Shown in pieces: positions 1-22,992 of a stretch of DNA of 42,481 nucleotides. Numbering within the stretch: the stretch's first letter is position 1; each line of letters begins with the position of its first letter. The stretch comes from Bacteroidales bacterium (GTDB taxonomy: Bacteria; Bacteroidota; Bacteroidia; Bacteroidales; UBA932): positions 1-42,481 of the forward strand of contig JAGCCX010000083.1 of the NCBI GenBank assembly GCA_017651465.1. The letters are read 5' to 3'. Made by a program: the position numbers and the translations under genes. The notes beneath the pieces were generated by a model. It worked only from the letters and a program-made list of their open reading frames with translations. It did no database searches and was not told the origin of the DNA.

Positions 1-2178
1 AGTCTGTCCGGGATTGCAGAGATAGCAATGATAATCAGTCGAGCTTGACCATCCGCTGTTGTACTCAGGAATGGTCCTGCCGCCATAGTACATATGTACC
101 AGCTGTATCTTGTTGAGGCTGGCAGCGTTAAGGATGCCCGGGAGATGCTCGACAGCGTCCTTGGTAAAGCTGTTGCCGATAAAAAGAATCCTGAAATCAG
201 CTTCAGCGTTCAGGTCGGGATCGGGCTGCTCCTCGCCGGTCTGAATCAGGTAAGTTATGTTGTTGAAAGTCCCGCCGGCACCGGTGGCGTTCGTTGTGCC
301 GAGGTATGCGACTTTTCCAGATTCCGGGTAAAGATCGTACTCATACGAACCGCCATTGTACTTGCCCACCTTTCCGCCGGCTACACCGCCTTCCCACGTT
401 GTGACGGTATTGATATAGCCGAAGAACACACCGCGGTAGTTACTGTCGGTGATGATCTCGCCATAATTTTCGCAATCGGTGAAAGGACCGGCATCGCTCG
501 GCAGCGAAATCAGGCCACCGCAGCGGCCGGCAGTCGTAGAAATCAGATTACCGTAGTTCTTGCAGGAACTCATCGTGGAGTTGTTGGCAATGTAGCAGAC
601 GATATTTCCAAGACGTGTCCCGTCGGTCTTATCCATTGTGTTCAGCTGGTTACCGCGATTCTCACAGGCGATGATGTCGGTGCTGCTGTTGGCGGCGCCG
701 ACTATTCCGGCAGTACGTCCGGCCTGGGAGGTCATCTCGCCATAATTGTTACAAGACGACACGGTATTACGCACGGAGCTGCCGGTGGGTGCATTGGTAA
801 AGCCTACGATTCCCGCGGCGTGGATGCCGGTGGCACCTGCGTTCAGATTCTGGGTGTTGGTCACGGAAATGGCGCCGTAATTATGCACGCTGTCCACGGT
901 ACAACCGCGGTTCTTGGTGTACATTCCTCCGATGAGTGCCATATGCAGCAGGCCTGTAGCGCTTCCGCCGTATGTCATAGGAGCATAGCTGGTAACATCG
1001 CGTACATCCGCGTCATAGAGCACGCCTGCAATCAATCCGGCGCTGTGAGATGCGGAAGAATTCACAGTCAGCGAGCAGTTCTCCTCGATGACGAAATTCT
1101 GCACGATAGCTCCTTCGCCCAGGCAGCCGAAAAGACCCCAGTGACGGCCTGTGACCGTTTCGTTACAGACGATGTGCAGGTTCTTGATGTGATGGGCGTT
1201 TCCGTCGAATTTTCCGGTAAAAGCGTGACCTTCCTTCACCACTGGATTATAGCTGCTCCAGGGAGCGGTGGCGAATCCCACCGGTGTCCAGGATGAGACT
1301 TCAGAGAAGTCGATATCTGCCAGAAGGTTCACCCAGCCATCTGCATTCTCCCACTGGAGCGTGGAGGCGCCGGAATTCACGGCCGCTGCGAAAGCGGCAA
1401 AATCAGCCGCGTCAGCAATGCCGTTCACCTTCCAGGCTACAGCCGGCATACTGCGCAGCTGGCCGGCCGCCAGGGTACGGGCACTGGTGTTACGCGTCAT
1501 TATCTCACCTTTCTGGTCGGTCACAGTTACCTTGAATCCCTGCGGATATTCGCCGGGAGGGACCGGCAGGTAAAGCTCCAGAGGCTGGGCAAGGGTGACA
1601 TCGCAGTTAACGGTAAGAGTCTTGTCAGCTTCGGCTGCAGAAGTCCCGGTGAGGGCTAGTGTTGCGTAGTCGATTGTGAAATCGCCTGCAATCTGCTCGC
1701 CTCCCAAACCGGCCACCTCTACCTTCTTTACAACAGTTTCGGAAGTGCCGACCACCGTTACTTTGAGCATTGAGGTAAGCGACGAGAAATGCAGCTCTCC
1801 CGCAGTCTCGGAGCGGCCGCCCAGCGGTACGACTTGCGAGTCGGCACTCCGCTCGGAGGGCAATGTCACTGTGTTCGCATCTTTATAAATAGACGCGGGA
1901 TACACGCCCTCATATGGAGTAGAGATGTCTTCGCTGAAGGAGAACTGGCCGACGGAAGCATCCTCGGTAAGGGGTGACGAAGCCTTACCGTTGACAACGA
2001 TGGCATCGCCTGCCGTCCAGCTTACCTTGACACCGTTGATTGCCGTCCGGCTTGCTAGTTCAGAAAGAGATGCACTGATGACATTCTTATTGTCCGGTTG
2101 TAGCCTTTCCCGCGTGCAACCCGGCAACAAGGCGGCACACAAGGCCGCAATGCAAATTAATAATACTGGCTTTCTCAT
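1..2178 (-). CDS. Surface lipoprotein: fimbrillin-like + GLUG-type repeats + DUF4886 SGNH-like hydrolase (3' end outside window)
   Basis: The frame is open from the ATG at 2178 to base 1, so 726 codons are visible and the C-terminus is missing. The protein starts with a lipoprotein signal ending ALLPGC (Cys about 21). Residues about 35-245 resemble the fimbrillin-like N-terminus of the next gene upstream, with SRTAINGVKVSWTAGDAIVV and the closing AAGQLRSMPAVAW. Residues about 250-650 form one GLUG-type module with recurring AGIVG and C-x-N-x-G steps. A new domain then begins with ILFIGNSFTKDAVEHLPGIL (GNS near 668-670), the block I signature of DUF4886, an SGNH-like family whose members are probably esterases or related hydrolases. 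It starts 7 bases after the preceding stop and is the most distal gene seen in the locus. The SGNH Asp/His block lies beyond the edge, so catalytic competence cannot be judged. Confidence 0.85.
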   Translation of the reverse strand, partial: MRKPVLLICIAALCAALLPGCTRERLQPDNKNVISASLSELASRTAINGVKVSWTAGDAIVVNGKASSPLTEDASVGQFSFSEDISTPYEGVYPASIYKDANTVTLPSERSADSQVVPLGGRSETAGELHFSSLTSMLKVTVVGTSETVVKKVEVAGLGGEQIAGDFTIDYATLALTGTSAAEADKTLTVNCDVTLAQPLELYLPVPPGEYPQGFKVTVTDQKGEIMTRNTSARTLAAGQLRSMPAVAWKVNGIADAADFAAFAAAVNSGASTLQWENADGWVNLLADIDFSEVSSWTPVGFATAPWSSYNPVVKEGHAFTGKFDGNAHHIKNLHIVCNETVTGRHWGLFGCLGEGAIVQNFVIEENCSLTVNSSASHSAGLIAGVLYDADVRDVTSYAPMTYGGSATGLLHMALIGGMYTKNRGCTVDSVHNYGAISVTNTQNLNAGATGIHAAGIVGFTNAPTGSSVRNTVSSCNNYGEMTSQAGRTAGIVGAANSSTDIIACENRGNQLNTMDKTDGTRLGNIVCYIANNSTMSSCKNYGNLISTTAGRCGGLISLPSDAGPFTDCENYGEIITDSNYRGVFFGYINTVTTWEGGVAGGKVGKYNGGSYEYDLYPESGKVAYLGTTNATGAGGTFNNITYLIQTGEEQPDPDLNAEADFRILFIGNSFTKDAVEHLPGILNAASLNKIQLVHMYYGGRTIPEYNSGWSSSTDYHCYLCNPGQT

Positions 2179-2185
2179 TTTTATA

Positions 2186-5100
2186 TTATTTTACTCGTAT
2201 TAATAAATAAGACATACAACTTCTTTCACCGTTACTGTCGGAAGGTCTGTTGACCACGGAACCTTGTCCTGACGATGGATTCCACAACCACATAGTGGTG
2301 GATCCGCCGCCGTCGAAGCGGGTAGCCGACCTGCCGCCGAGCTTCTTCGAAATACGGTATATTTCATATGCTTTCAGGCCCATAGAGTACCACCCCTGAC
2401 GGCCGTCCACAAGAACTACCCACAGCTTTTTGCCGTCCTCGCTGACAACCGGCCAGGTCATCGGGTCGAAGCGGGTATGAAGAGAGGATGTCGAACCTAT
2501 GGAAGATGTCCGGTCGTTACCGTCTTTCATTATCTCATACATAGACGATCCCTGAGCGGCTATGGGCTTTGAAGCGTCTCCTTCTATGGAGATATCACAT
2601 TTAAATTCAACATTGTCACCAACCTTCACCCTGGACGCCCACGTGTCGGCTACGGTTCCGGAAAGGGCGATGCCGATTTGATTTGCCGCCGTTATGTACG
2701 GCGGGTTCGAAAGCGCCTGCTTCCGGCCATCATAGATAGACCGCACCGTGGTCGAATAATAGCCGCGGTTGACCTTCATAGGCGTGTCGTCATATTCGCA
2801 GATAACATACAGCACGTTCGAAGCAAGGGAATTAACCAGTTTGCTGTTCGAAGGATGCGGCAGCTTCACGTAGCGCGACGTGTACAGGTTCACAGGAGCC
2901 ACGGTGGGAGAAGCGTGCCTGAGCGTGGTGTCGTTGATGCTATAGTAGGAATATTCAGTCCCCGCGTGGCGCAAGGTTCCGGTGAAAGCTTTCTTTCCTA
3001 AAGATGCGGAGCCATCCTCAAAGACTGTAAGGCCCCATCTGTGGTTGGAAAGAGACGTCACAACGGACGGATTGTTGATATACAGAGGCTCCCCTCCCTC
3101 AACGTGAAATCCGCGCAGGATTCCGGCGTAAGAATCGAAGAAACCGAGATTGACGCCGGCGATAATGTTGTCCCCTGCATTCCGCTTTCGCGTGCAGAGC
3201 TTGGACAAGGTTTCACGAAGCACGAATCCGGCGTCCAGGTGGTCGTTGTCCCGTCCGTTCGGATTGGGAATGATATCATCCGCCAGGGCTGTGGTAACTT
3301 CGACCGCCGGGCTCGTCAGATCGACTTCCAGGACGTGCATATGACGGGGAACATTCTTGAACTGGCAGTGACGGTAAGAGACACCCGATGCAAGATTACG
3401 GCTTTCCAGCACATTCCAGTCGTAATAACTGTCGGCCGTCCAGTCCACGCTGTTCTCTTCGGGTTTGAAGCAGCTGGTGTAGTCCTGGCGGACGGCGTTA
3501 TAGTAATTCGACTCTGGAGCAAGTTGGGGCGAGGAGGCATAGGTGTCATAATCGCCCACACGGCCATATCCGGAATTGGAAGTGAATGAAGCTGCGGTCT
3601 TATTGTAGCAGCAGCCCCAGGCGGGACCGTAATTGCCGTCAATGCGGCCTATGATCGCGCCGTTATTGACACAATTCTTGATGACTCCGGTACTGTAGCC
3701 GGCAAGTCCTCCCTGCTGGCAGGCCATAGGCACGATTATGTCGCCATTATTTGTACATCTGTCGGCTTCATTCTCTCCGCCGATGGTGGATTCGGGAGAA
3801 TTATAGCCCGCAAGTCCGCCGATTATCAGCCCGTTGCCCTGCGCACTGTTGCCCTCGACGCTCAAGTCGGCATTGTTGGTTACAGAGTGCAGGGTTACGC
3901 CCTTGGAATAACCCACGATGCCTCCGGCACGCAGTTTTTCCGGGTTACCGTAAAAGACGACTTTGCTATTGCTGTCTCCGAAAACAAGGTTGCTGATACT
4001 GACGTTATTCGCATTGCCGAAAAGTCCGGCGTGCGGATACTTCACGGCATCTATCCGCCAGTTGACGCCATAGATACGGTGTCCCATTCCGTCAATATCG
4101 CAGCTTAGCGGACGTTCACTCGTGCCGATCGGCACCCATTCGCTGATGGAGGAAGCGTCGATGTCGCGGAGTATCTGTACCGTTCCGTCGCTCTGCCAGG
4201 GAGCAAGGCTGCCGCCATCGTTAACCGCCTGAGCAAAAGCAAGCAGGTCCTCGACACTGTTTATCCCCGTCCACTCAGGCGCTTCGGTATAAATGATATT
4301 GTCCGGCGTTACATTTGTGGCGGATGAATTATGAGAACCGATATAATTGAAATAATTGTTCGCATTGACGCCCACCATCTGATAGGAACCGCCGTTGTAG
4401 GTTCCCACGTCGCCGGCAGCGATACAGGAGCTGAAACTGGCTGCCAGGTTGCATTGCTGGAAGAATGTGCCGCGATAAGTTGTCTCGTCAGAAATCACGC
4501 GGCCGTAATTGGCGCAGTTCTCAAAACGGTTGTTCTTATTGTTCACCAGGCTCACCACGCCGCCTGCGCGGGCCATAGTGGCGCAGATGACATCGGCATA
4601 ATTGACACATCCAACAAGCGCTGAACCGTCTCCGGTGATGCAGGTGATATTGGCTATTCGCCCGCCTCCGGATACCGTAAAAGCATTATAGTTGTCTCCG
4701 TGGTTTTCACAAGATTCGATAAGCGCATAACGGTTGGCCGCCGCAACGATTCCCGCACTGCGGCAGACCGTCGTTTCCAGCTCGCCGTAATTGGTGCAGT
4801 GGCGCACGTGGACAATCTTGCTTGAGTTGGCTGCGTTGGTTGCGAAACCTAGTATTCCGGCAACCTGTACACCGGTAGCACCATTCTTGATGTTGTTGCC
4901 GGTAGATGCAGATACCTTTCCCTCGTTGACTAGCCCCTCGATGATCGTGTCCCCTTCGCCGGAGAAAGCAAAGCCCAACATAGACATCGTCTCCCGTATG
5001 TCGTCCGCGGCTTTGTTATCCAGGGTCATAGACGCGTGATTGGTGATATTGCGCACGGTGGCTTCATTCACAAGTCCCGCAACAATTCCGGCATCACTTC

Positions 5101-6250
5101 TTACCGAAGGAGTAAACTTAAATGAGCAGCTCTCGTCAATTACAAAATTCTCTACGATGGCGCCGGGGCCAAGGATGCCGAAGATTCCGCAAGGCAATGA
5201 CTGCATACTTTCTTTGGTGATTCCTGCACCTGCCGCGGCATATGTAAAGGCGAAATTGCGCAGCGTATGGCCACAGCCGTCGAAGTGTCCAGTGAAGGGA
5301 TGACCGCTGACCGTCAATGTGTTGGATGCCCAGGTGCTCACGCCTGTGCCAACCGGAGTCCAGGAAGTGACGCCGGAGAAGTCGATGTCTCCGAGCAAGG
5401 TCACTACGCCTTGGTCATTTTCCCATTGCTTGGTGGAAGCGCCGCTGTTTACGGCTGCGGCAAAAGCCGCAAAGTCTTCCGCTGTAGCAATTCCGGGCTT
5501 CTTCCAGGCAAGGGCGGGCATAGCGCGAAGCTGACCGGCCGCGCAGGTGCGTGCACCGATATTACGGCTCATCTGGTTTCCCTCAGCATCCTCCAGGTCG
5601 AGACGGAATCCCTCGGGATAATTCCCTTCCGGCACGGGCAGGTACAGCATTACAGGGGTCTGTCCGAGCGTGGTGGTGCAATTGAGGCTGACAGTATTCA
5701 CGCCTGAAACCGGAGCTATTGTTCCGCTGGTAAAGTCGATACTGAACGTTCCGCTTAGTATCTGACCGCCAATGGCTGTCAAGGTCGCCTTTTTGAGGGT
5801 CTCTCCGTTCCCGGTCAGAGGAACACGGAGCACCGCGGTCAGTGCGGAAAAGCTAATCTTATTACCCGTCGAGGCGTATCCCCACAGCGGAATCTGTGTC
5901 AGGGAGGCATCAAAACTGTCCGGAATAGTCAGTTGAGTGTCGCTTTTCCACATCGACGAAGGATAGACTGCCCGGTATGGGAGAGTCAATTCGTCCGAAA
6001 AGTTAAAACTTGCGCTCGCTCCCGCTTCGGTCAAAGCGTATGAACGACTACCGTTGACCACAATCTCATCTCCGACACTCCACGTCAATTCAGTGCCGTC
6101 AACATCTGTCTTGGTTATGTCGGGAAGGGCGGCCTGAAGCGTAGTCCTGACCGGACCCGTGCCGGTTTCTTCCGGCACCAATTCGGTCATACAGCCACAC
6201 ACGGCTGCACAGAGAGCCGCAAACGCAACCCGGAACCTCTTAACACGCAT
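2186..6250 (-). CDS. Surface lipoprotein with fimbrillin-like domain, two GLUG-type modules and C-terminal phosphodiester glycosidase (NAGPA/DUF2233)
   Basis: 1354 residues. The N-terminus has a lipoprotein signal with Cys about 20 (CAAVCGC). Residues about 35-245 are fimbrillin-like (TELTWSVGDEIVVNG). Two repeat modules follow: the first about 250-670, opening GIATAEDFAAFAAAVNSGAS and rich in C-x-N-x-G turns, the second about 675-940. From about 975 to the end is a phosphodiester glycosidase domain (PF09992, the family of the human mannose-6-phosphate uncovering enzyme): AGVNLGFFDS, VVLVDGRQGWYSMGLKAYE, FDGGGSTTMW (DGGG from 1313) and a closing VNRPSDSNGERS. The family cleaves sugar-1-phosphodiester links. 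The C-terminal roughly 680 residues match the product of the gene at 13589-15997 almost along their length, so the two are paralogues. The start is 2 bases after the small gene at 6253-6384. Probably outer-membrane anchored and facing outward. Confidence 0.9.
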   Translation of the reverse strand: MRVKRFRVAFAALCAAVCGCMTELVPEETGTGPVRTTLQAALPDITKTDVDGTELTWSVGDEIVVNGSRSYALTEAGASASFNFSDELTLPYRAVYPSSMWKSDTQLTIPDSFDASLTQIPLWGYASTGNKISFSALTAVLRVPLTGNGETLKKATLTAIGGQILSGTFSIDFTSGTIAPVSGVNTVSLNCTTTLGQTPVMLYLPVPEGNYPEGFRLDLEDAEGNQMSRNIGARTCAAGQLRAMPALAWKKPGIATAEDFAAFAAAVNSGASTKQWENDQGVVTLLGDIDFSGVTSWTPVGTGVSTWASNTLTVSGHPFTGHFDGCGHTLRNFAFTYAAAGAGITKESMQSLPCGIFGILGPGAIVENFVIDESCSFKFTPSVRSDAGIVAGLVNEATVRNITNHASMTLDNKAADDIRETMSMLGFAFSGEGDTIIEGLVNEGKVSASTGNNIKNGATGVQVAGILGFATNAANSSKIVHVRHCTNYGELETTVCRSAGIVAAANRYALIESCENHGDNYNAFTVSGGGRIANITCITGDGSALVGCVNYADVICATMARAGGVVSLVNNKNNRFENCANYGRVISDETTYRGTFFQQCNLAASFSSCIAAGDVGTYNGGSYQMVGVNANNYFNYIGSHNSSATNVTPDNIIYTEAPEWTGINSVEDLLAFAQAVNDGGSLAPWQSDGTVQILRDIDASSISEWVPIGTSERPLSCDIDGMGHRIYGVNWRIDAVKYPHAGLFGNANNVSISNLVFGDSNSKVVFYGNPEKLRAGGIVGYSKGVTLHSVTNNADLSVEGNSAQGNGLIIGGLAGYNSPESTIGGENEADRCTNNGDIIVPMACQQGGLAGYSTGVIKNCVNNGAIIGRIDGNYGPAWGCCYNKTAASFTSNSGYGRVGDYDTYASSPQLAPESNYYNAVRQDYTSCFKPEENSVDWTADSYYDWNVLESRNLASGVSYRHCQFKNVPRHMHVLEVDLTSPAVEVTTALADDIIPNPNGRDNDHLDAGFVLRETLSKLCTRKRNAGDNIIAGVNLGFFDSYAGILRGFHVEGGEPLYINNPSVVTSLSNHRWGLTVFEDGSASLGKKAFTGTLRHAGTEYSYYSINDTTLRHASPTVAPVNLYTSRYVKLPHPSNSKLVNSLASNVLYVICEYDDTPMKVNRGYYSTTVRSIYDGRKQALSNPPYITAANQIGIALSGTVADTWASRVKVGDNVEFKCDISIEGDASKPIAAQGSSMYEIMKDGNDRTSSIGSTSSLHTRFDPMTWPVVSEDGKKLWVVLVDGRQGWYSMGLKAYEIYRISKKLGGRSATRFDGGGSTTMWLWNPSSGQGSVVNRPSDSNGERSCMSYLLIRVK

Positions 6251-6252
6251 AA

Positions 6253-6384
6253 TTAATCCCAGGTATCCTCGACTAATTCAAGATCAGTAATATCACCGGA
6301 ATAATCTGTTCCGGAAGCTTCAAGCAAAGGCTGTGCTTCTTTAAACTTAAGCAATTCAGCCACAGGAGACAAATACTTTTTCAT
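6253..6384 (-). CDS. Small peptide gene (43 aa) inside the SusCD lipoprotein operon
   Basis: An ATG at 6384 opens 43 codons ending TAA at 6253, with only 2 bases before the next lipoprotein start at 6250. The peptide begins MKKYLSPVAELLKF, has LLEASG in the middle and an acidic tail rich in Asp/Glu ending DTWD. It has no signal peptide, membrane segment or cysteine. The layout, a basic start with Y-x-x-P, an alternating hydrophobic stretch, a Leu-Leu-x-x-Ser-Gly step, then a polar acidic tail, is shared with the 44-residue gene at 9265-9399, and resembles many unnamed short Bacteroidales proteins I have seen. Function unknown. Candidate roles are a secreted peptide with a leader cut near Ser-Gly, or a small partner of the adjacent lipoprotein. 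No modifying enzyme is nearby. Coding is supported by position, tight spacing and similarity to the second peptide. Confidence 0.6.
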   Translation of the reverse strand: MKKYLSPVAELLKFKEAQPLLEASGTDYSGDITDLELVEDTWD

Positions 6385-6494: not shown

Positions 6495-9251
6495 CTACTT
6501 GTAATAATCCTCTCCGAGGGCGGCGAGGGATGAAGGGACTGGATAAGAACACCCGGAAGGGATTTCCCAGCCGGCAGACTTGTAAGACTGTCCACTTACG
6601 GTCAGGCTGTATCCAGTGGCCCTGGATGAGTGAGCAGAACAGAAATCAGCACTGGTAAGAGTCACGGCATCGGACTTGGTGATATCTGACGTCGTTGTAT
6701 CACCAGAAGTACCGATAGTTTGGCTATTGTCTGAAACCACGTAATAGGCATGTGCCATTAAGCCAAAGGGCAAACCTCCAACAAACCCACCCCTATAAGT
6801 ATCAGAAGTGGCAGACAAGTTACTATTTTCTACTAATGAAATGTTATTTCGAACCCGGACATATGCGTGATTGGTAGCCACACCGGCAGTTACATTTCCA
6901 ACAAAAGCTCCTACATAAGTGCGTGCCCCCGCCGAGAGCTTCTTGTTCAGTCCAATGCAGTTGTCAATGGCCATATATTGACCGGTGTAACTAGCATTTC
7001 TGACGACACGACCTGCAACTCCGCCTAAATTGGCAGCCCCGGTAGAACGGGTAGTGCTTACATCCGCAGCTGCCAGACAGTCGTAGACATACATACGGCC
7101 GTAGGTTGAGTTGTTGCAATACATTTGCCCAACAATACCACCCACGTCGTAACCTGCCGCTACAACGGCACCTTTGGCAAAACAAGTGTTAAGGACACCG
7201 CCCAACATCTGCCCGGCTATCCCACCGGCGCAGGATGCGTTTGTGGATGTGGCGGTAATGGTTGCGTTCGAACGACATTTATTCAGATAAGGCCACCCGT
7301 TGTTATTACCCTGTCGTCCAACGATGCCGCCGACATACTGAGTTCCGGTTATGTCACCAATGTTGACGCATTGGGTTATAGTTCCTGCAGGAAGGTTCGC
7401 TGCAATGCCGCCGATATACGCTGCTCCGGTTACTTTTCCTTCATTGACACTATTGGAAACCTCTGCCGTATCAGAATTGACAAGGCATACTATACCTCCG
7501 ACATTGCCGCTTCCTTCAGACGGCACCTCAACTTTCCCATAATTGTGGCTACAGGTTATGGAACAACTACCGCCCAGAATAACGCAGATACCTCCCACTC
7601 GGGGGCTGTTGAAAATGTTGTGCACATCTCCCTTATTATTGCACTCCGAGATTGCCGTGCGGGCATTGGCAGCAGCCAGGATACCGGCGCAACGGCCGGT
7701 ATTAGCATCAATCTCTGCATAGTTGGTGCAGGAACTGATTTGATTGATGACAGAAGAAGCTCCCGTATTTCCAAAACCGGCTATACCTGCCACCTGAACG
7801 CTAGTGGCTCCATTAGCTGTATTGGCGCTGGATTGCGTGGCCGTGACTTTGCCGTAATTGTTCAATCCGCTAAGTGTAGAAAGACCGGAGGCGGCATCTC
7901 CATATACATATCCAACCATACCGAGCGCGACCCGGTTGGCAGAACTGTTGTCGGGAATGGTCATCGGGAAATAGTTTGTAACATTCTCGATGGTCGATCC
8001 GTACGAGACGCCGGCCAGGGCTCCTGCATCCATTCGTCCTTGAGGAGTAGCAGTTAATGCGCCTGTATCCCCGCTCTGCGCTCCCAGTATAAGGTTCTTA
8101 ACTTGCGCGCAATATAGGATGCCAAACAAACCATAAGGAGTATAGGTCTCCGGAGAACCGGTCATAACAAGGTTCTTGATGGCAAAGCCCTGTCCGTCGA
8201 AAGTTCCCTTGAAAGCGGGCTCCGTCCACTCGGCTGAAACCGTTCCACTTTCAACGGGGGTGAAAGTGCCATTCCCAATAGGTGTCCAGCTGGAGATAGT
8301 TGAGCAGTCGATATCCTGTCCAAGTTTTACTTGGCGGGTGGCCCACAGTATGCTGCCGCTGTTCACGCCGTCGCGGAATTCTTCCAGGTCGGAGGCATCG
8401 TTGATTTCGAAGCTGTTCGCATCCTGGACCTTGCACTGGATGGTGTACTGACCGCCGCCGGTCCAGTTCTGTGCGGTCATGGGCAGCGTACGGATGTACA
8501 CGTCTTCGGGGGTATCGACTGCTACGGTAAGTTCATCACCGGCCTGCCACTCCACACCTGCGGCCGAGAACATCATATAGGCTTCCAGAATGCGGTTGGA
8601 AGGAAGCGTAATGTTACTCAGGGCCAGCGTCATCTCATTTACTTTATTGGATGATGCCGAGTTGGTGGAAGGGAAGACGGGGCGGGAAGCCATCAGCGTC
8701 ACGGAGTTAGCGCCGCTTGTGCCTTCCGGCAGCTGCAGTCGCAGCTGGATGACACCGTTCTGTACCAGCGAACCGCCTTTTTCGGAAGCCCATTCCGTGT
8801 CGAACTTGGGCTCCTGATAATCACTCACGCCGGAAAGCATTGCGTTGTACTCAAGGTGGGCGGTGGAAGAATTGCCGCTCTGAGCCTGGCCGGTATAAGT
8901 ACGGGCATTGAAAGCCGTGGCGTCGGTGTAACTGCCAGGATAGATAATGGTGTACGACGAGGCGGCACCGGGGTCGGCACCTTCGAATTCTGCTTCGTGG
9001 TCGCTGATGATATTGGTCACCGAGAACTCATTTCCATTGACGGAAATCTTGTCGCTGATTTCCCACTTCAGATTCATTGCCTTCTTGTCCGAGGCTTCGG
9101 TCATAGACACTTTTGTGCCCAGACTTTCAGAAGTGGAGACCTTGATGGTAACGCGCTCTTTGGACTGAGGCTGGTCTTCCTGCTTTAGTTCCTGCGTACA
9201 GGAGAAAGCGATCAAGGCCGTAACGGCCATTAAGATGTATCTTGTCTTCAT
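6495..9251 (-). CDS. Surface lipoprotein: fimbrillin-like domain + long GLUG-type repeat region
   Basis: 918 residues from the ATG at 9251, chosen over an ATG 17 codons upstream because it gives a proper lipoprotein signal (MKTRYILMAVTALIAFSC, Cys18) and has a strong Shine-Dalgarno AGGAGG 8 bases before it. Residues about 35-275 are fimbrillin-like (LGTKVSMTEASDKKAMNLKW, then EISDKISVNGNEF). Residues about 285-890 are GLUG-type repeats: a module opening with DLEEFRDGVNSGS and CSTISSWTPIGNG, then many AGIAGFG, GGIVC and C-x-N-x-G turns, typical of a right-handed beta-solenoid. There is no recognisable enzyme domain, and the C-terminus ends on the Pro-x-Pro-type close common to GLUG proteins. 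Lies between the two small peptide genes. Likely a surface glycan-binding or adhesive protein; binding is inferred from locus context only. Confidence 0.85.
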   Translation of the reverse strand: MKTRYILMAVTALIAFSCTQELKQEDQPQSKERVTIKVSTSESLGTKVSMTEASDKKAMNLKWEISDKISVNGNEFSVTNIISDHEAEFEGADPGAASSYTIIYPGSYTDATAFNARTYTGQAQSGNSSTAHLEYNAMLSGVSDYQEPKFDTEWASEKGGSLVQNGVIQLRLQLPEGTSGANSVTLMASRPVFPSTNSASSNKVNEMTLALSNITLPSNRILEAYMMFSAAGVEWQAGDELTVAVDTPEDVYIRTLPMTAQNWTGGGQYTIQCKVQDANSFEINDASDLEEFRDGVNSGSILWATRQVKLGQDIDCSTISSWTPIGNGTFTPVESGTVSAEWTEPAFKGTFDGQGFAIKNLVMTGSPETYTPYGLFGILYCAQVKNLILGAQSGDTGALTATPQGRMDAGALAGVSYGSTIENVTNYFPMTIPDNSSANRVALGMVGYVYGDAASGLSTLSGLNNYGKVTATQSSANTANGATSVQVAGIAGFGNTGASSVINQISSCTNYAEIDANTGRCAGILAAANARTAISECNNKGDVHNIFNSPRVGGICVILGGSCSITCSHNYGKVEVPSEGSGNVGGIVCLVNSDTAEVSNSVNEGKVTGAAYIGGIAANLPAGTITQCVNIGDITGTQYVGGIVGRQGNNNGWPYLNKCRSNATITATSTNASCAGGIAGQMLGGVLNTCFAKGAVVAAGYDVGGIVGQMYCNNSTYGRMYVYDCLAAADVSTTRSTGAANLGGVAGRVVRNASYTGQYMAIDNCIGLNKKLSAGARTYVGAFVGNVTAGVATNHAYVRVRNNISLVENSNLSATSDTYRGGFVGGLPFGLMAHAYYVVSDNSQTIGTSGDTTTSDITKSDAVTLTSADFCSAHSSRATGYSLTVSGQSYKSAGWEIPSGCSYPVPSSLAALGEDYYK

Positions 9252-9264
9252 AATCGTGTCCTCC

Positions 9265-9399
9265 TTAATTATCGCCGTCAAGGTCTTCAATAAAGACATC
9301 ATTGTTTTCCATATCCTTCACGCCGGAGTATAGCAACATATCATCCAGTTTTACTACCAGCACTTTAACCCTGGGAGTCGTGTAATCGTTCTGTTCCAT
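9265..9399 (-). CDS. Small peptide gene (44 aa) inside the SusCD lipoprotein operon
   Basis: ATG at 9399, TAA at 9265, 44 codons. It sits 23 bases after the propeller gene stop and 13 bases before the next lipoprotein start. The peptide begins MEQNDYTTPRVKVLVVKLDD, contains MLLYSG and ends with an Asp/Asn/Glu-rich tail (FIEDLDGDN). It has no signal peptide or cysteine. It shares its plan with the 43-residue peptide at 6253-6384: aromatic-x-x-Pro near the start, a stretch with hydrophobic residues at alternate positions, Leu-Leu-x-x-Ser-Gly or Leu-Leu-x-Ser-Gly, then an acidic tail. Each peptide gene lies directly upstream of a fimbrillin-like lipoprotein gene, which suggests a link to that lipoprotein class. 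Function is unknown. Confidence 0.6.
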   Translation of the reverse strand: MEQNDYTTPRVKVLVVKLDDMLLYSGVKDMENNDVFIEDLDGDN

Positions 9400-10778: not shown

Positions 10779-10779
10779 T

Positions 10780-16000: not shown

Positions 16001-17866
16001 CTATTCCCAACCGGGGTTTTGAGTTAACTTTCCATCGTACGCCTGTATCTGTCCGAGCGGAACAGGATACAGATAATCGCGGTCTTTCCACACATAATCC
16101 TCTGCGGCGTCACGGGTGATGTACCCGTGGTCTCCGTCGGACAGGGTGAGCGAATTGGCGCCAACCTGGATGCGGTTCGTGGCAGGGATGGAGGAAGTGA
16201 CGCTCGAAGGCATCTGGCCGGAATAGATCAACAGGTCTTTCTTGCCGTCGTGGTCGGTGTCGTATTCACCGAGAGCAGGAATGTAGATGCCTTTGTAGCC
16301 GGGGGTGAGGGAAGCAGGATCGAGCGGAGATGCACTGTCGGACTTGTTGCCGGCGGCAGTAAGGGGCCCGCCCTCTTTCCAACGAATCATATCCCAGAGG
16401 TGGAATCCTTCTGCAAAGAGTTCTACGACTCTTTCACGACGCACTTCCAGGATTGCAGCAAGCATAGTGCCTTTGGCATTGGGATAGTACTCTGCCATCA
16501 GCGGATCGGGAGAGTCGGGAAGCGTCAGGTTGGGCATTCCGGCTCGGTCGCGGATGAGCTTGATGGACTTGTCTATCATCGCCTGGGTCAGTTCACCAAG
16601 TTCGGCGTTGGCCTCGGCATAGTTGAGCAGGACTTCAGCATAACGGATGAAGGCCCAGTCGGTCGTGCTGGTGGTAGCATTCTCGTGGCTGCCGTCGGAT
16701 ACGCCCTTGATGACGCGGTATCCATTCAGCGTCCTGGCGAAGTCGGTGGTTTCTACGGCGCCCTTCATCGCGGGATCGAGATAGCCGAAGTGGCCGGGAC
16801 CGTGAAGGGTCTGCGCCATACGGGGATCCCTGCGCTGGAACTGCTCGTAGTATTCTTCAGTGGCCCAGCCGTTCCTGTTCTGGATAGGCGTGCCGTCGGA
16901 GCACAGGTAGTGGTTGACGAAACGGCGTGTAGCACTATAGGTTTCGTTCTTCAAGTCGAACTGGAGTCCGTGACGGATGGCAAGGGTAACGTCGTAGTGC
17001 CTTGCGAAAATCGCCTCGGGATTACCCTTGAGGTCCTCGAGCTGGAAGAAGTCGCGATAGGCCTTCCAGTGGGAGTCTTTGCTGGTATTGTACAGGCTGT
17101 ACCTGCCGGAAGACATAACGCTCTGGGCGGCATCGGCAGCCTGGCGAAGGAACCATTCGGCGCTGAGCGTCGTGGTGGAGCCGTTCGCATCGGTGTAGGT
17201 CTCGTCGGCCACGTTGTGATATTTGCGGAATGTTCCCTCGAACAGGGCGACGCGGGACTTGTATGCCATCGCGGCGTATTTGTTGACGCGGAAGCAGCCG
17301 TCGGGCCAGCTGTCGGGGAGTTTCATTGCGGCAAGGTCCAAATCTTCGATGACCTTCTTCATAACATAACCGCGGGAATCGCGAGCGTGGAAGAGTGCGT
17401 CTTGATCGGCGGATCCTACTACAGAATCATAATACGGTACGTCACCATAATACTGGACCATCTGATAATAGAACATAGCACGGAAGAAGTGCTCTACGCC
17501 CTCATATTTGGTGCGGGCCTCTTCGTTCTTGCAGTTGGAACAGTTTTCGAAGAACTGGTTGATATGGCGGAGGTAGCCCCAATGGCCCTGGGACCAGAGT
17601 CCGGTGGTCGCATTGGTGCGGGTGCCTTTCTGTATGGCGCTCAGGCTGCGTCCGATGTAATCGTCACCCCTGACTTCAGCATACGACGTGGCGTCGTCCA
17701 GCAGGGCGTTATACTCGTAGTTGGTCCACAGCTCCATTTCTTTCTCGGACGAGAAGAAATTTTCAGGGGCGAGATTGGTCTCAGGAGTTTTCGTGAGAAA
17801 GTCCTCGCAGGCAGTCATAGTCAGCACTGCGGCCGATACTGTCAATACTTTGAATATACTTTTCAT
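16001..17866 (-). CDS. SusD/RagB family glycan-binding outer-membrane lipoprotein
   Basis: 621 residues. Lipoprotein signal MKSIFKVLTVSAAVLTMTAC, then EDFLTKTPETNLAPENFFSS, the standard SusD opening. The N-terminal TPR-like region has EGVEHFFRAMFYYQMVQYYG and DVPYY; the C-terminal part has ADDATTSTTDWAFIRYAEVLLNYAEA-type text (the step is FIRYAEVLLNYAEANAELGE) and ERVVELFAEGFHLWDMIRW. SusD proteins lid the SusC pore and deliver bound oligosaccharide or peptide to it. Starts 18 bases after SusC with a strong Shine-Dalgarno AGGAGG, unusual in Bacteroidota, where initiation seldom relies on one. Length is at the high end of normal. Specificity cannot be read from the sequence. Confidence 0.96.
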   Translation of the reverse strand: MKSIFKVLTVSAAVLTMTACEDFLTKTPETNLAPENFFSSEKEMELWTNYEYNALLDDATSYAEVRGDDYIGRSLSAIQKGTRTNATTGLWSQGHWGYLRHINQFFENCSNCKNEEARTKYEGVEHFFRAMFYYQMVQYYGDVPYYDSVVGSADQDALFHARDSRGYVMKKVIEDLDLAAMKLPDSWPDGCFRVNKYAAMAYKSRVALFEGTFRKYHNVADETYTDANGSTTTLSAEWFLRQAADAAQSVMSSGRYSLYNTSKDSHWKAYRDFFQLEDLKGNPEAIFARHYDVTLAIRHGLQFDLKNETYSATRRFVNHYLCSDGTPIQNRNGWATEEYYEQFQRRDPRMAQTLHGPGHFGYLDPAMKGAVETTDFARTLNGYRVIKGVSDGSHENATTSTTDWAFIRYAEVLLNYAEANAELGELTQAMIDKSIKLIRDRAGMPNLTLPDSPDPLMAEYYPNAKGTMLAAILEVRRERVVELFAEGFHLWDMIRWKEGGPLTAAGNKSDSASPLDPASLTPGYKGIYIPALGEYDTDHDGKKDLLIYSGQMPSSVTSSIPATNRIQVGANSLTLSDGDHGYITRDAAEDYVWKDRDYLYPVPLGQIQAYDGKLTQNPGWE

Positions 17867-17884
17867 ATTTCTGTCCTCCTGTAA

Positions 17885-20800
17885 TTAGAATGTAATGTCC
17901 ACGCCGAAGGTGAAGGTCTTGGCATACGGATACAAGCAGTCGCCGTATGCGGAGGTCGTCGCCACTTCGGGATCCACAGTGTTGCAGTATTTCTTCATCG
18001 GAGAGAGATAGAACAGGTTTTCTCCGCTGAAATAGAGTCGGCACTTCTTGATGGCTGAAGCCTTGAAAGGAATGGAGTAACCCAGGGTGAGGTTCTTCAG
18101 ACGCAGGTAGGCCGCGTTTTGCAGGTAGCGGTCGTTGACGACGCTGTTCTTCACGAGCTGTGCACGCTGGCGGGGGAAATATCCATCAGGGTTCTCTTCG
18201 GTCCAGCAATTTGCCTGCAGGGTGGTCGGGATGAACGTAGGCCTTCTATAGGAATAAGGGCCCCAGAAGTAAACGCAGTTGGCATCGGGATACCAGTCAC
18301 ATTTGCCCACGCCCTGGAAGAAGACACTCAGGTCTATTCCGTTCCAGGAGAAGTCGCTCTTGAGGGAATAGCGGTAGCGGGGCAGGCTGTTTCCGATCAC
18401 GCGGCGGTCGCCGGGATCATCAAGGGTGTTGGAACCCGTATTGATGGACTTCTTGCCATCCTTCACATGCGTGTCACCGTCAAGGTTCTCAAACTTCATA
18501 TCACCGGCAAGTACCTTGTTATAAGGAGCCTTGCAATCGAGTTCAGCCTTGTTGACGACGCTCAGGTCGTATTCTTCGGCCCATTGAGCGGCCTCTTCAT
18601 CGGAGCCGAACAAGCCTAATACGTGGTAGCCCCAGATCTCGCCCAGAGTCTTGCCAACATAATTGTCGGTAAGCAGGTTGGTGGGGTTGTTGAACTTGGT
18701 GATCTTGGTGATATTGTCGCCCAGGGTGGCGCTTATGCCGTAGTGGAGGGGCTTGCCGCCAAGTTTCACGGCATCGTGCCAGCTTACCATAATCTCGTAT
18801 CCGGTAGTGCGCAGGTCGGCGGCATTCTCCTTCGGGGCGCTCTCACCGTAAACGTTGGGAAGCGTCATCGACTTGGTGAGCATATCCTTGGTGTCACGGA
18901 TGTAAGCGTCGGCCGTGATGTTCAGGCGGTCCCTGAAGAATCCAAGGTCAACACCGGCATTGTAGGAAATCACGGTCTCCCAGGTCAGGCCACTGGAAAC
19001 GGGAGACGACATCGTGGCGCGCTGCGCAGCATCGGTCCCGTTGAAGGTGTAAGAAAGTTTGGCAAGGGAGATGGTGTCGAAATAGTAGTAGTTATCGACC
19101 TGCTGGTTGCCCAGGGTACCGTAGCTGAGACGCAGTTTAGCCTTGTTCCAGGTGTCTTTCAAGGGCGCCCAGAAAGGTTCCTCGCTGATGCGCCAGCCCA
19201 CGGATGCCGAGGGGAAGAAGCCCCAGCGGTGACTCTTCGGGAAGCGGGAGGTTCCGTCATAACGTCCGGAGATCTCGAGCAGGTATCTTTCAGCGTAGTT
19301 ATAGTTGATACGCCCAAAGAAGCCGAGAGTACGGTAGGCGCTGTTGGACTCGGCGAGGGTTGAGATTTCCGTGGCTGAGGCCAGGTTGATGTAAGAGAGA
19401 GACTCGCTCAGCGAACCTTTCTGGTGTACCGTCAGGTTTGATGAACGGTAGTCGTCGAAGTTGGCGCCGAGGGTGGCGGCGACATTGTGATTGCCGAACG
19501 ATCCGTCATATGAGAAGTAGCCGTTGGCAACGTGGCCGTCCCGGTAGTAGCGCACCTCGCGATAGAAGTCATACACGGAACCGTTGCTGAAATAGCCTCC
19601 GGTGAGCCCGTTACCCACGTACATACGCTTGTTGGCGTTGTCGTAGCTGTTGGGGGTCGGAAGGCTGCGGTAGGTATTCACATTGTCGTTGCGGCGATAG
19701 GTGTAGTCGGCGACGAATTTCAGTCCTTTGGCGATGCTGAAGGTGAAGCGGTTGGTCAGGGTCAGGGCGTTTTTGATGTGGGCATTCGTGTTGGTATCGC
19801 TCATCCACACGCCGCCGCGGCCGCTGAACAGAGGAGAGGTTGCTCCGTACATAAAGCCCGGTTGCATATTCACGGTGCCGTCGGGATTGAAGGGAACATA
19901 GAAAGGACCGACGTTCTGCGTCGTGTTCCACAGGATACCAGCCTCAACGAGGCCGCCCAGTCCGTCCTGCTCCCAGAATCCACCGTACCGGTAGTTGGAC
20001 CTTTCGTATGCGATGTTGTTGGAATAGTGCAGCCAGGGGGTGATTTCCGCATTAAGTTTGGCGCGGAAGGAATAGTTGTCGACCTTGTCTTCCGCCGCCT
20101 GGTTGAACAGGCCTTCGCGGTACAGGTAACGGCCGCTCACATAATAGTTCATCTTCTGGGTGCCGCCCTTGACGGAGACGTTGTGCTCCGTCTCGGGACG
20201 AGTCCTCTTGAACAGGTATCCGTACCAGTCGAAATTGCCGAGGTAGAGGTAAGTGTAGGTGTTGGTCACGTCGGGAATGACCCACGGACGCGAGGGATCC
20301 TCGGTCACATCGTTCCTGCGGTCGTACATCATTTGGATCTGCGCCTCAGAGAATGTCCAGGCGTCGTTACCCTGGAATATCTGGTTGAACGAGTTCGTCA
20401 TTGTGATGTAGTCGTACGCGGTGGTGATGAAGTCCGTCGAGGTGGTGTTGCTGGCGATGGAGTAGCGACCGTTGTAGTTGATGGATGCCCTGCCTTCCTC
20501 ACCGACGCCGCTCTTGGTGTTGACCAAAATCACGCCCGCGGAAGCCTTTGCTCCGTAGATGGCACAGGCGGAGGCGTCCTTAAGCACGGAGATGCTCTCG
20601 ATGTCATTCGGGTTCACGAGCGACAGGCTGCCCTCCACGCCGTCCACCAGAACAAGCGGGCTGCCGGAGTTCAGGGAAACCTTTCCTCGGACGGACACGC
20701 TGTATTCGGTAGCTTCGATGGAACCGTTCCCGTTAGTGAGGATAATGGAAGGATCAGCACCCTGGAGGGCCATTGCCGTATTAGTGACGGGACGCTGGTT

Positions 20801-21445
20801 GAGAGTCGCGCCGTCGATTACGGAAACGGCACCGGTCACGTTCACCTTTTTCTGGGTACCGTAACCCACCACCACGACTTCGTCGAGCAGGTTCATCGAA
20901 TCGTCGAATTCGACTCTGATATGGCCTTCGTTGCCATTAACCGTAATCTCCTGGTCGGAATAGCCGATGTAGGAAACGACGAGGGTCGCGGGGAATTTGA
21001 CGTCCTTGAGCGCAAAACTTCCGTCGGAGCCGGAGATAAATCCAAGATTTGTGCCCTTGACGAGTATACCGGCTCCCATAAGCGGATCCCCGTTCTCATC
21101 CAGCACAACGCCGGTGACTTGAGCGGGTTTTGTCTTAGGTTCGCCTTTGCTGACGGAAATGCTCTTCCCGTCGATGATGTAGGTCACTTGCTGGCCTGCG
21201 AAAATCTGGTCCAGCACGTCCGTGATAGATGCTCCGGAAGCGTTGACGCTAATTACCTTGTTGAGATCCACGTCGCCCGAATTAACGGATACCGAGTATC
21301 CGTGGGCTCGGTTCAGTGCGGTAATAGCATCGCTAACCTTCACATTCTTCAAAGACAGATTAACCTGAGCACTCGCGCCGATGCTGAGCACCAAAGCAGC
21401 GAATGTCAGAATAAGTGGCTTGAAAAAGCTTTTTTTGGTTAACAT
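17885..21445 (-). CDS. SusC/RagA family TonB-dependent receptor with STN signalling domain
   Basis: 1186 residues. Signal peptide to about ASA(25). Residues about 28-100 are an STN domain (VNLSLKNVKVSDAITALNRA) that contacts a FecR-type anti-sigma factor across the periplasm. Residues about 108-195 are a carboxypeptidase-regulatory-like beta-sandwich (VTGVVLDENGDPLMGAGILV). A SusC hallmark TonB-box area (LLDEVVVVGYGTQKKVNVTG) leads into the plug, with NPNDIESISVLKDASACAIY, and the rest is a 22-strand barrel ending FTFGVDITF with a terminal aromatic. It imports ligand delivered by SusD using TonB energy. The STN domain plus the sigma/FecR genes directly upstream point to trans-envelope signalling, in which ligand binding frees the sigma factor. 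Starts 17 bases after the fecR stop. Confidence 0.97.
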   Translation of the reverse strand: MLTKKSFFKPLILTFAALVLSIGASAQVNLSLKNVKVSDAITALNRAHGYSVSVNSGDVDLNKVISVNASGASITDVLDQIFAGQQVTYIIDGKSISVSKGEPKTKPAQVTGVVLDENGDPLMGAGILVKGTNLGFISGSDGSFALKDVKFPATLVVSYIGYSDQEITVNGNEGHIRVEFDDSMNLLDEVVVVGYGTQKKVNVTGAVSVIDGATLNQRPVTNTAMALQGADPSIILTNGNGSIEATEYSVSVRGKVSLNSGSPLVLVDGVEGSLSLVNPNDIESISVLKDASACAIYGAKASAGVILVNTKSGVGEEGRASINYNGRYSIASNTTSTDFITTAYDYITMTNSFNQIFQGNDAWTFSEAQIQMMYDRRNDVTEDPSRPWVIPDVTNTYTYLYLGNFDWYGYLFKRTRPETEHNVSVKGGTQKMNYYVSGRYLYREGLFNQAAEDKVDNYSFRAKLNAEITPWLHYSNNIAYERSNYRYGGFWEQDGLGGLVEAGILWNTTQNVGPFYVPFNPDGTVNMQPGFMYGATSPLFSGRGGVWMSDTNTNAHIKNALTLTNRFTFSIAKGLKFVADYTYRRNDNVNTYRSLPTPNSYDNANKRMYVGNGLTGGYFSNGSVYDFYREVRYYRDGHVANGYFSYDGSFGNHNVAATLGANFDDYRSSNLTVHQKGSLSESLSYINLASATEISTLAESNSAYRTLGFFGRINYNYAERYLLEISGRYDGTSRFPKSHRWGFFPSASVGWRISEEPFWAPLKDTWNKAKLRLSYGTLGNQQVDNYYYFDTISLAKLSYTFNGTDAAQRATMSSPVSSGLTWETVISYNAGVDLGFFRDRLNITADAYIRDTKDMLTKSMTLPNVYGESAPKENAADLRTTGYEIMVSWHDAVKLGGKPLHYGISATLGDNITKITKFNNPTNLLTDNYVGKTLGEIWGYHVLGLFGSDEEAAQWAEEYDLSVVNKAELDCKAPYNKVLAGDMKFENLDGDTHVKDGKKSINTGSNTLDDPGDRRVIGNSLPRYRYSLKSDFSWNGIDLSVFFQGVGKCDWYPDANCVYFWGPYSYRRPTFIPTTLQANCWTEENPDGYFPRQRAQLVKNSVVNDRYLQNAAYLRLKNLTLGYSIPFKASAIKKCRLYFSGENLFYLSPMKKYCNTVDPEVATTSAYGDCLYPYAKTFTFGVDITF

Positions 21446-21462
21446 ATAGTATAGAATTAGGG

Positions 21463-22410
21463 TTATTTAGATTGTAAATAAATGGTCTTTCCGGAGCGTT
21501 TGACGCTCATTTTGCCGTCTGAACTCATCACGGCCAGAATCTGGTCGAGGGTTTCGTCGTTGGTGAAGATGGAGAAATAGCGCCTGGAGGCCAACTTCTC
21601 GTCAAGGACTATGATTTCGCAGTTGAAGCGGCGGGACAGGTCCGCTGCAATATCCGCCATTTCCATATCAAAGAAATGAAGCGAATTGTCTTCGAAGAAG
21701 GCCTTATAACCAGAGGGGTTGAAGCGGATAACATCAAGTTTGTCGTTTTCGCGGTTGTATTTCATTTGGTCCCCGGGCTTCAGCCGTACTACCCTTGTGT
21801 CGTTCCGTACAGACACGCTGGCCTCAACGCTACCATCCATCAGAAGTAATTCAGCCGTATGTTCCTGGGCAAAATTCTTAAAGTTGAACGAGGTGCCCAG
21901 CACCTTGATGTCAACGCCCTTGGATTTGATGATGAATGGATGCTCGGGATCTTTTGCCACGTCCAGATATGCCTCTCCGTCCATAAAGACGGTGCGGCTG
22001 GCCCCTGAGAACGTTGCCGGATACGTCAGGCGGCTTCCTGAATTGATGTGAAGCACCGTACCGTCGGAGAGTGTTACCGTCTGCTTTTCGCCGAAGGGCA
22101 CGCTCACTTCTACCCACTCTATAGCGGCTATGCGTTCTTCTCCTGTGCTCAGGCCGGCCTTATAAGAAATAGGCAAGGCTATCAGAAGAGCAATCACAGC
22201 TGCAGCCGCTATGATATAAGGATAAATCTTTTTGAATATGGTTTGACTGCGGTTTTGCTGACCCGACGCTGAAAGGCACTCGTCGAAAAGACTCCGGAGG
22301 GAGTCGTCGAGTTCCTGCGACCTGCTGTTGGTACAGATGTATTTCTGTACCTCTTCCTCTTCACTTAAGGAGAGGCGGTCGTAAAAATAATCGTTTAATT
22401 TATTCTTCAC
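21463..22410 (-). CDS. FecR-type anti-sigma factor
   Basis: 315 residues from a GTG start at 22410. A cytoplasmic N-terminus of about 60 residues (DRLSLSEEEEVQKYI) would bind the sigma factor. One membrane segment lies about 63-85 (IYPYIIAAAAVIALLIALPI). The periplasmic FecR domain spans about 105-210 (VSVPFGEKQTVTLSDGTVLH, INSGSRLTYP, MDGEAYLDVAKDPEHPFIIK). A DUF4974-type C-terminal domain at about 245-312 (FFDMEMADIAADLSRRFNCE) resembles STN domains and probably meets the SusC STN domain. It sits between the sigma gene (48-base gap) and susC (17-base gap), so the signalling chain is complete in gene order. Confidence 0.95.
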   Translation of the reverse strand: MKNKLNDYFYDRLSLSEEEEVQKYICTNSRSQELDDSLRSLFDECLSASGQQNRSQTIFKKIYPYIIAAAAVIALLIALPISYKAGLSTGEERIAAIEWVEVSVPFGEKQTVTLSDGTVLHINSGSRLTYPATFSGASRTVFMDGEAYLDVAKDPEHPFIIKSKGVDIKVLGTSFNFKNFAQEHTAELLLMDGSVEASVSVRNDTRVVRLKPGDQMKYNRENDKLDVIRFNPSGYKAFFEDNSLHFFDMEMADIAADLSRRFNCEIIVLDEKLASRRYFSIFTNDETLDQILAVMSSDGKMSVKRSGKTIYLQSK

Positions 22411-22458
22411 ACTTATTAAACGTATGAAGAACTTGAAATACGTAATTGAAGCCGATGA

Positions 22459-22992
22459 TTAATTCAGATAAATCGAGACTTCTTTTTTGGCCAACTCAAG
22501 GTGCTTCTGTACCGTGCGGACCGAGATGCCCATACGGGCGGCTATTTCATCATCGGAAAGACCGTTTAACTTGCTCATCCTGAACACCTCCGATCGTTTT
22601 TTCGGCATCTTGGCCAAGACTGAATTGAGCACGGGCATCATAGCCTCGGGCTGAATGCCGTCGGATATCCTTTCGGGTATGTCCAGCCCGCGGTCAACGT
22701 GGCTTTCCCACTTGGAGCGCAACGTGCTGACTACTTCGTTGCGGGCGCAGATGAACAGCCAGTTTTTAAACGATGTTTTGTTTTCAAACGATGGTTTGGA
22801 CGACAACAAACGCAAGAAGATATTCTGGACTATGTCTTCTGCCTTCGCCTTTTCTTTGATAAGGCCTGTCACGAATCGGCGCAACCCCGGGGAATAGCGT
22901 TTATAGATCTCAGCAAAGGCCCCCATATCCCCATCGGCCATAGCCTTGATGAGGACATTATCGTCGGTCTTTCCCTGAGATCTGAATGACAT
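22459..22992 (-). CDS. ECF RNA polymerase sigma factor (FecI-like)
   Basis: 177 residues, the usual size. Region 2 is at about 24-95 (MGAFAEIYKRYSPGLRRFVT, AEDIVQNIFLRLL, KNWLFICARNEV), region 4 at about 118-172 (LNSVLAKMPKKRSEVFRMSK and DDEIAARMGISVRTVQKHLE, the helix-turn-helix). It lacks region 3, as all ECF sigma factors do. The neighbours FecR and STN-bearing SusC make it the effector of ligand sensing for this locus. No TAnnTTTG box is seen in the 33 bases upstream or in the end of the preceding gene, so basal expression may depend on read-through from the FAD oxidoreductase gene, an ECF promoter I cannot recognise, or autoregulation. Confidence 0.96.
   Translation of the reverse strand: MSFRSQGKTDDNVLIKAMADGDMGAFAEIYKRYSPGLRRFVTGLIKEKAKAEDIVQNIFLRLLSSKPSFENKTSFKNWLFICARNEVVSTLRSKWESHVDRGLDIPERISDGIQPEAMMPVLNSVLAKMPKKRSEVFRMSKLNGLSDDEIAARMGISVRTVQKHLELAKKEVSIYLN

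Follow-up and report, generated by a model that had tools for sequence, protein, structure and literature searches.

The window analysed here is the 42,481-nucleotide contig JAGCCX010000083.1 (positions 1 to 42,481) of assembly GCA_017651465.1, from a Bacteroidales bacterium of the UBA932 lineage, and the system in question is a SusC/SusD (SusCD) locus with two phosphodiester glycosidase (NAGPA) lipoproteins that occupies the minus strand from 22992 to 1. The window is one entire contig (C83 of the source genome, G000) within a 2.5-Mb assembly of 85 contigs, so the left side of base 1 was judged from relatives alone. The locus encodes ten proteins, where the initial annotation had given eleven, in the order sigma factor, FecR, STN-SusC, SusD and six lipoproteins, an order on which coordinates and Pfam agree. 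An extracytoplasmic function (ECF) sigma factor of 177 amino acids (aa) (22459..22992; Sigma70_r2 and r4_2 by Pfam) and a 315-aa FecR-type anti-sigma factor (21463..22410; FecR and FecR_C) precede a 1186-aa SusC TonB-dependent transporter (17885..21445) with an STN domain (E 8e-9), plug and barrel, which trees place in a phosphoester-associated SusC clade, and a 621-aa SusD lipoprotein (16001..17866; SusD_RagB, 3.5e-42). Behind SusD lie an 802-aa lipoprotein with BACON_2, a repeat region and a C-terminal NAGPA domain (13589..15997; PF09992, 60 bits, over the cut-off), a 930-aa surface lipoprotein with solenoid repeats that appear GLUG-like by eye and with sub-threshold BACON and M26_N matches (10780..13572), a 464-aa lipoprotein with an N-terminal Ig-like part and a five-bladed propeller (9423..10817; PF21311, 1e-8, over the cut-off), a 935-aa repeat surface lipoprotein without a Pfam family (6495..9302), a 1354-aa repeat lipoprotein with a C-terminal NAGPA domain (2186..6250; PF09992, 2.8e-14, 54 bits, over the cut-off) and a repeat lipoprotein that enters a DUF4886 domain and ends at the contig edge (1..2178). 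A plausible lipobox is present in 6/6 lipoproteins. The DUF4886 assignment is in part sustained: the match starts at residue 663, and SGNH-like motifs (GNSFT and DGYH) are found in the complete homolog of a relative, but in the window, where the contig end breaks the gene, it scores 20.7 bits, below the 26.7 cut-off.

The locus has SusC, SusD, surface lipoproteins and ECF/FecR control in common with classical polysaccharide utilisation loci and differs from them in its enzymes: the SusC/SusD pair is present and a glycoside hydrolase (GH) or lyase over the cut-off is absent, and none was found in an ortholog of about 90 % SusC identity. No GH, polysaccharide lyase (PL) or carbohydrate esterase (CE) family reached its cut-off in the ten locus proteins by Pfam, and HL_N-beta, an Ig-like domain from the N-terminus of hyaluronate lyases, was sub-threshold in the propeller protein (17.4 bits against a cut-off of 27).

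The NAGPA domain is about 410 aa long in both proteins by alignment, lying at 13592-14815 and at 2189-3418 of the minus strand, and the Pfam match spans its C-terminal half only. The motifs G-[IV]-N-x-GFFDS and DGGGS are intact in both window domains, as the initial annotation had read them; across orthologs DGGGS is invariant in 45 aligned rows and the N and second F of NxGFF are invariant in 40 rows, but the G of NxGFF varies (S or C). Membership of PF09992 is borne out by the curated Pfam score and by the N-x-G-[FY]-F and DGGGS motifs. A profile of 45 domains gave, among the matches listed, the solved structures 3ohg (1e-27) and 6ozd (4e-18) and the uncovering-enzyme structures 6pki (2e-11) and 6pkg (3e-11), and N-x-G-[FY]-F-D and DGGGS line up between the profile and the solved structures, being common to the uncovering enzyme, DUF2233 (3ohg) and the domains described here. 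What distinguishes the latter from known NAGPA/DUF2233 proteins is fusion to repeat surface lipoproteins and a fixed place behind susD; their activity is a prediction from sequence. The long domain (E<=1e-40) is narrowly distributed, since it was found in 1/295 genomes of the order, namely the source genome. Characterised NAGPA, from animals, strips α-N-acetylglucosamine (GlcNAc) off GlcNAc-1-phosphate-6-mannose. The same chemistry, with a different hexose, is that of the linkage between wall teichoic acid and murein, given in a passage of PMC7831098 as α-GlcNAc-1-phosphate to C6 of N-acetylmuramic acid (MurNAc).

The source genome also encodes a 718-aa fusion of NAGPA with a histidine phosphatase of the MINPP type (L022:8121-10277, G000:C6), the one fusion protein compared with solved structures, of which residues 58-426 matched MINPP structures and residues 605-699 matched 3ohg by phmmer. 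Pfam found NAGPA alone in this protein, and the fusion reading was retained after phmmer; similar proteins were found in G016, G042, G003, G023, G033, G017 and G028 with our own hidden Markov models (HMMs), and Pfam misses the phosphatase half in 2/2 of those scanned. The fusion hints that NAGPA releases a phosphomonoester from which the phosphate is subsequently removed. In addition, a 1357-aa DUF4855–DUF6259–NAGPA protein is encoded at L018:2703-6776 (G000:C39), in a SusCD locus outside the phosphoester-associated SusC clade, the second NAGPA gene of the sister genome (L080:5330-9234, G011:C77) was read as two open reading frames, and the repeat protein behind NAGPA is likewise split in L120.

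The propeller of the type found in the staphylococcal phage P68 receptor-binding protein, proposed in the initial annotation, is confirmed by the PF21311 match and by the modelled fold, which is that of the staphylococcal phage receptor-binding platforms. The likeness to the receptor-binding proteins of staphylococcal phages (phi11 Gp45, 80alpha, P68) and NF5 C1 is limited to residues 140-463; the phage proteins with this fold bind teichoic acid, but here it belongs to a 464-aa Bacteroidales lipoprotein whose ligand is conjectural. Together with several long repeat lipoproteins, the propeller suggests a large polymeric ligand at the surface. The same proteins would also suit adhesion to neighbouring cells or to the host without catabolism, with the NAGPA domains acting as lectins, a reading that we consider very improbable given the SusCD importer, the intact catalytic-type motifs, and the phosphoesterase, GlpT-like and GlpD-like genes of related operons. 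A second lipoprotein with Big_2 and propeller-like parts, 26-27 % identical to the locus propeller, is encoded at window 25650-27026 on the minus strand and precedes the sigma factor by a few genes.

The missing end of the operon is found in an ortholog on CACZMF010000005.1 (L120, L137), whose SusC is 90 % identical and whose gene order is the same as in the window. An EEP gene precedes the second NAGPA gene there, and the complete DUF4886 protein of 1351 aa is followed by DUF389 and by an OPA-type transporter of the major facilitator superfamily (MFS), for which GlpT (1pw4, 1e-41) is the closest match among solved structures. No hydrolase was found among the co-directional genes beyond the point equivalent to base 1, the opposite-strand genes after them being unscanned, and the gene content of L137 thus indicates that the operon end carries a phosphate-ester-type transporter and no hydrolase. 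Together with the NAGPA motifs, which are preserved and align with solved NAGPA structures, this means that two of the findings which the initial annotation named as refuting it turned out in its favour. Two assemblies stop inside the DUF4886 gene (window 1-2178 at residue 726 and L080:9242-10720 at residue 493, of 1351), and a repeat may break assembly there.

The enzymes of related operons are exchangeable in position. The sister genome G011 has a MINPP-type phosphatase and an EEP gene after the propeller, in place of the homolog of 6495..9302, and orthologs L120 and L124 have an EEP or MINPP-type gene behind that homolog. Among the relatives' proteins, RHG[ASV]R and [GAH]HD occurred anywhere in 18/18 of the MINPP type; SDH was found in 31/31 and [GA]D[FL]N in 30/31 EEPs; HRG and HD were found in 13/13 GDPDs, the family to which GlpQ belongs, with the stricter EID pattern in 7/13; and 17 metallophosphoesterases had GNH[DE] in 17, GHxH in 11 and the first motif in 6. 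The shorter of these patterns are weak evidence. The EEP genes and one S1-P1 nuclease among the relatives might indicate uptake of extracellular nucleic acid, with DNA or RNA cut by these enzymes, but the EEP family also spans phospholipid and inositol phosphatases, and NAGPA, GDPD and GlpT-like carriers are not known to act in nucleic acid use, so this explanation is very improbable.

Operons were labelled if they held an EEP, GDPD, MINPP-type, Metallophos or OPA gene, NAGPA being set aside. When genome contigs were scanned for the NAGPA alignment, 52 loci emerged, 40 with a SusC–SusD pair in the gene calls; NAGPA stands directly behind SusD in 40/40 of these, and 29/40 hold labelled genes in the operon. 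An origin of the pattern by chance or artefact was rejected, because the main families exceed their cut-offs and NAGPA is directly behind susD in all 40 comparable loci. Labelled genes were present in 19 of 20 loci with similar SusCs, which are members of the clade described below and hence no control set, with Metallophos directly upstream of susC in 12 of the 20, and in 4 of 42 sampled SusCD pairs. The sampled set comprised 40 regions, every third of the 127 rows of a SusD list from five genomes, which yielded the 42 pairs; it omits the NAGPA loci G042:C6 and G041:C8 and the last row, and one row was swapped for its neighbour for overlap. With G042:C6 and G041:C8 included the count is 5/44, and collapsing related loci at 75 % SusC identity leaves 13/14 for the SusC-similar loci and 4/42 for the sample.

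Pfam scans, which are independent of our own HMMs, covered 100 of the 134 operon proteins of the sampled loci and showed Alpha-amylase, GH20, GH3, GH123 and two EEPs among the best 25 of 120 families; the 81 proteins of the SusC-similar set gave MetallophosC 17, EEP 4, GDPD 3, NAGPA 3 and GH89 1 (best 25 of 56 families). In the NAGPA loci, 73 accessory proteins (179 operon proteins less 37 NAGPA, 62 repeat-protein homologs and 7 near-duplicates or fragments) fell into 17 Pfam families with no GH, PL or CE among them. The nearest named relatives were assemblies of Bacteroidales from rumen and gut (RUG, goat, buffalo, deer, horse), together with Alistipes sp. Zagget8 and Alistipes montrealensis; strain kh20 of the latter has a homologous locus (L165) with a SusC at 49 %. 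A survey of OPA genes found 11 genomes with OPA proteins 66-98 % alike; it was not relied upon, because G016, G012 and G013 have no labelled phosphoesterase near the OPA gene.

In a FastTree phylogeny of 121 SusCs, 74 fall on one side of a branch with support 99, and 72/74 of these are labelled against 7/47 outside; the NAGPA-scan rows were labelled by construction, which does not apply to the SusC-similar and out-of-genus rows, and the trees gave long-branch warnings. The two unlabelled members of the clade, L140 and G054:C75, are both on short contigs. Operons of the clade hold EEP, GDPD, MINPP-type phosphatase, MetallophosN/C, NAGPA and GlpT-like (OPA) transporter genes. SusC at E<=1e-190 was found in 11/295 genomes of the order. 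With the HMMs fixed, the four best SusC matches from other genera were taken from the same 295 genomes, so that the close reading covered four of the 10 out-of-genus loci; they belong to four other families, and all four loci hold phosphoester-type genes. By Pfam, G269 has a GlpD-like gene of the glycerol-3-phosphate dehydrogenase/oxidase type (DAO, DAO_C; truncated by the edge of the stretch), an MFS gene (OPA by our own HMM), SusC, SusD, a secreted protein and NAGPA, a gene order that connects NAGPA and SusCD with the use of glycerol-3-phosphate; G120 has SusC, SusD, a secreted protein and two EEPs; and G085 and G168 have MetallophosN/C before SusC and SusD. These four tree rows were labelled by hand, in agreement with Pfam, the EEP of G120 scoring 48 against our own HMM threshold of 70.

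The locus was considered as unique in its genome, and this was rejected: four further SusCD pairs of the source genome adjoin phosphoester-type genes (NAGPA on C52, Metallophos on C49 and C35, EEP on C38), the C52 pair alone being placed in the tree. A GH31–GDPD–OPA operon elsewhere in the source genome (C52:118015-122970) would suit an α-glycosylated glycerol phosphate, and GDPD–OPA pairs occur there and in the related operons L123, L127 and L149, off the window contig. One clade member, G051 (L109:8370-19055, G051:C19), has the order Metallophos, SusC, SusD, a 987-aa protein, GH89, GH31 and Metallophos/GDPD, for which a glycosylated glycerophosphate is a possible substrate. The lack of glycoside hydrolases is therefore true of the locus itself, but not of this relative or of the genome at large. 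The GH89 gene, together with the action of animal NAGPA on GlcNAc-1-phosphate-6-mannose, lends something to the idea that the substrate is a phosphoglycan from a host, a plant or a fungus (phosphomannan, glycosylphosphatidylinositol glycan or mannose-phosphate glycoproteins) or the phosphorylated capsule of another bacterium, but no mannosidase family occurs in the 73 scanned accessory proteins and phosphomannan leaves the glycerol-phosphate genes unexplained, so that we regard such a substrate as improbable.

The closest known systems are the Flavobacterium Pus systems (PusCD, PUS I-IV), which passages of PMC8115612 describe as SusCD beside phosphomono- and phosphodiesterases in place of carbohydrate-active enzymes, in clusters with inner-membrane organophosphate transporters and ECF sigma/FecR regulators. 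The likeness consists of the SusCD-like pair and a co-located phosphoesterase, NAGPA in the window and EEP, GDPD or MINPP-type enzymes with OPA carriers in orthologs, and a gut relative of the Pus systems is the most likely reading of these sequences. The initial annotation had set the locus apart from classical loci, which is right as to hydrolases, but Pus gives the kind a precedent. The SusCD–phosphoesterase pairing is thus already known, and the features unlike Pus are the NAGPA gene that follows susD, the propeller of phage type, DUF4886 and the large lipoproteins with repeats; the words NAGPA, teichoic, calcineurin and GlpT are absent from the main text of PMC8115612. Flavobacterium Pus is induced by phosphate depletion and its PusD is polyphyletic, according to passages of the same source, whereas the systems described here belong to a single SusC clade from Bacteroidales of gut and rumen; the locus may be classed as Pus by gene content, Pus itself being defined by its response to phosphate depletion.

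A strict Pus role would be general scavenging of organic phosphorus, in which the uptake of phospholipid head groups, of glycerophosphodiesters or of inositol phosphates serves mainly to supply phosphate or glycerol and NAGPA is a broad phosphodiesterase. The mixed and exchangeable phosphoesterases, including the MINPP-type phosphatase, and the GDPD, GlpT-like and GlpD-like genes are consistent with it, but characterised NAGPA acts on a sugar-phosphodiester, and the long repeat lipoproteins and phage-type propeller suggest a large polymeric ligand. Pus systems have similar parts, and lipid head groups and nucleic acids are suggested as targets of the PUSI cluster in part of PMC8115612; ECF, FecR and STN indicate induction by a ligand, but ECF and FecR genes occur in Pus clusters too. 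We hold scavenging to be rather unlikely.

That the substrate is a phosphodiester is well supported by context and probable, and teichoic acid is the best single guess for it, with about an even chance. The locus as a whole is, by a slight balance of probability, a sigma/anti-sigma-regulated, Pus-like SusCD operon for a glycerophosphate or glycosyl-phosphate polymer, most likely a Gram-positive teichoic acid. Surface propeller and solenoid lipoproteins would hold the polymer, and the two NAGPA lipoproteins would cleave sugar-1-phosphodiester bonds, a possible target being the alpha-GlcNAc-1-P-O6-MurNAc bond that anchors teichoic acid to peptidoglycan; the DUF4886 SGNH-type enzyme may strip esters such as D-alanyl or acetyl groups. 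Oligomers would enter via SusCD, with a substrate signal passing from the STN domain through FecR to the sigma factor. Phosphoesterases of the EEP, GDPD, MINPP or calcineurin type, encoded in relatives' operons and elsewhere in the source genome, would release glycerol-3-phosphate or phosphate, and a GlpT-like carrier would import the former. The more specific proposal of a teichoic acid utilisation locus, in which wall polymers of Gram-positive bacteria, a phage-type propeller, anchor-clipping NAGPA and a SusC lineage feeding GDPD, GlpT and GlpD all belong together, is tentative and falls somewhat short of an even chance. In Bacillus subtilis the cell's teichoic acid is degraded by GlpQ together with PhoD, an enzyme of the calcineurin type (a passage of PMC11188070). 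Members of the two superfamilies are also found, alongside GlpT-like carriers, in related operons, a likeness at the superfamily level only, and whereas B. subtilis recycles its own wall, the enzymes here adjoin an outer-membrane importer. The initial proposal of phosphodiester-linked glycan uptake without hydrolases is thus supported in part, by the phosphoesterases and GlpT-like transporters of orthologs, the SusC phylogeny, the out-of-genus loci and the propeller fold, with a substrate that is a prediction.

Several points weigh against this overall reading of the locus as a Pus-like operon for a phosphate-linked polymer. On the window contig NAGPA is the sole phosphoesterase in the operon, MINPP-type enzymes suit inositol phosphates equally, and one EEP had no solved relative at E<=0.01. 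Among the loci read, the propeller is confined to near relatives of the window, and a fold in common does not demonstrate ligand binding. As to the counts, the 20 SusC-similar loci were hand-picked from SusC matches and our own HMMs were partly trained on the loci being compared. The loci are also kin: the 40 NAGPA loci form 11 groups at 75 % SusC identity, 7 of which have any labelled member and 4 of which have all members labelled, and 11/40 NAGPA loci, both Alistipes loci among them and some on short contigs, have no further labelled gene.

If the teichoic acid reading is true, Bacteroidales of gut and rumen would draw a nutrient from the walls of Gram-positive cells, whether alive or dead. 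Many 'phosphodiester glycosidase' lipoproteins would then gain a function, phosphoester SusCD systems would extend to the gut, and a fold used in phage adsorption would seem to share its ligand with a surface lipoprotein of Bacteroidales. No description of SusCD-based teichoic acid consumption was found in the open-licence papers searched, as judged by titles and the beginnings of abstracts.

Some neighbouring genes were also recorded. A calcineurin-type phosphoesterase is encoded at window 28873-29982 on the minus strand, like the sigma factor, which it precedes by some 6 kb; it was considered as an ortholog of the Metallophos gene of L126 and found not to be orthologous. Behind the EEP–SusCD operons at L101:11874-16055 and L118:11170-15355 lie genes for a proton-pumping pyrophosphatase and for a fused NagB/PIG-L protein. 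At L166:16342-19891, genes for a MocA oxidoreductase, an NlpC/P60 peptidase and an MR_MLE enzyme lie directly downstream of a GDPD gene, perhaps for muropeptide use; the NlpC/P60 and MR_MLE genes were not used as evidence, Pfam having found no counterpart in the tested proteins of L125 and L171.

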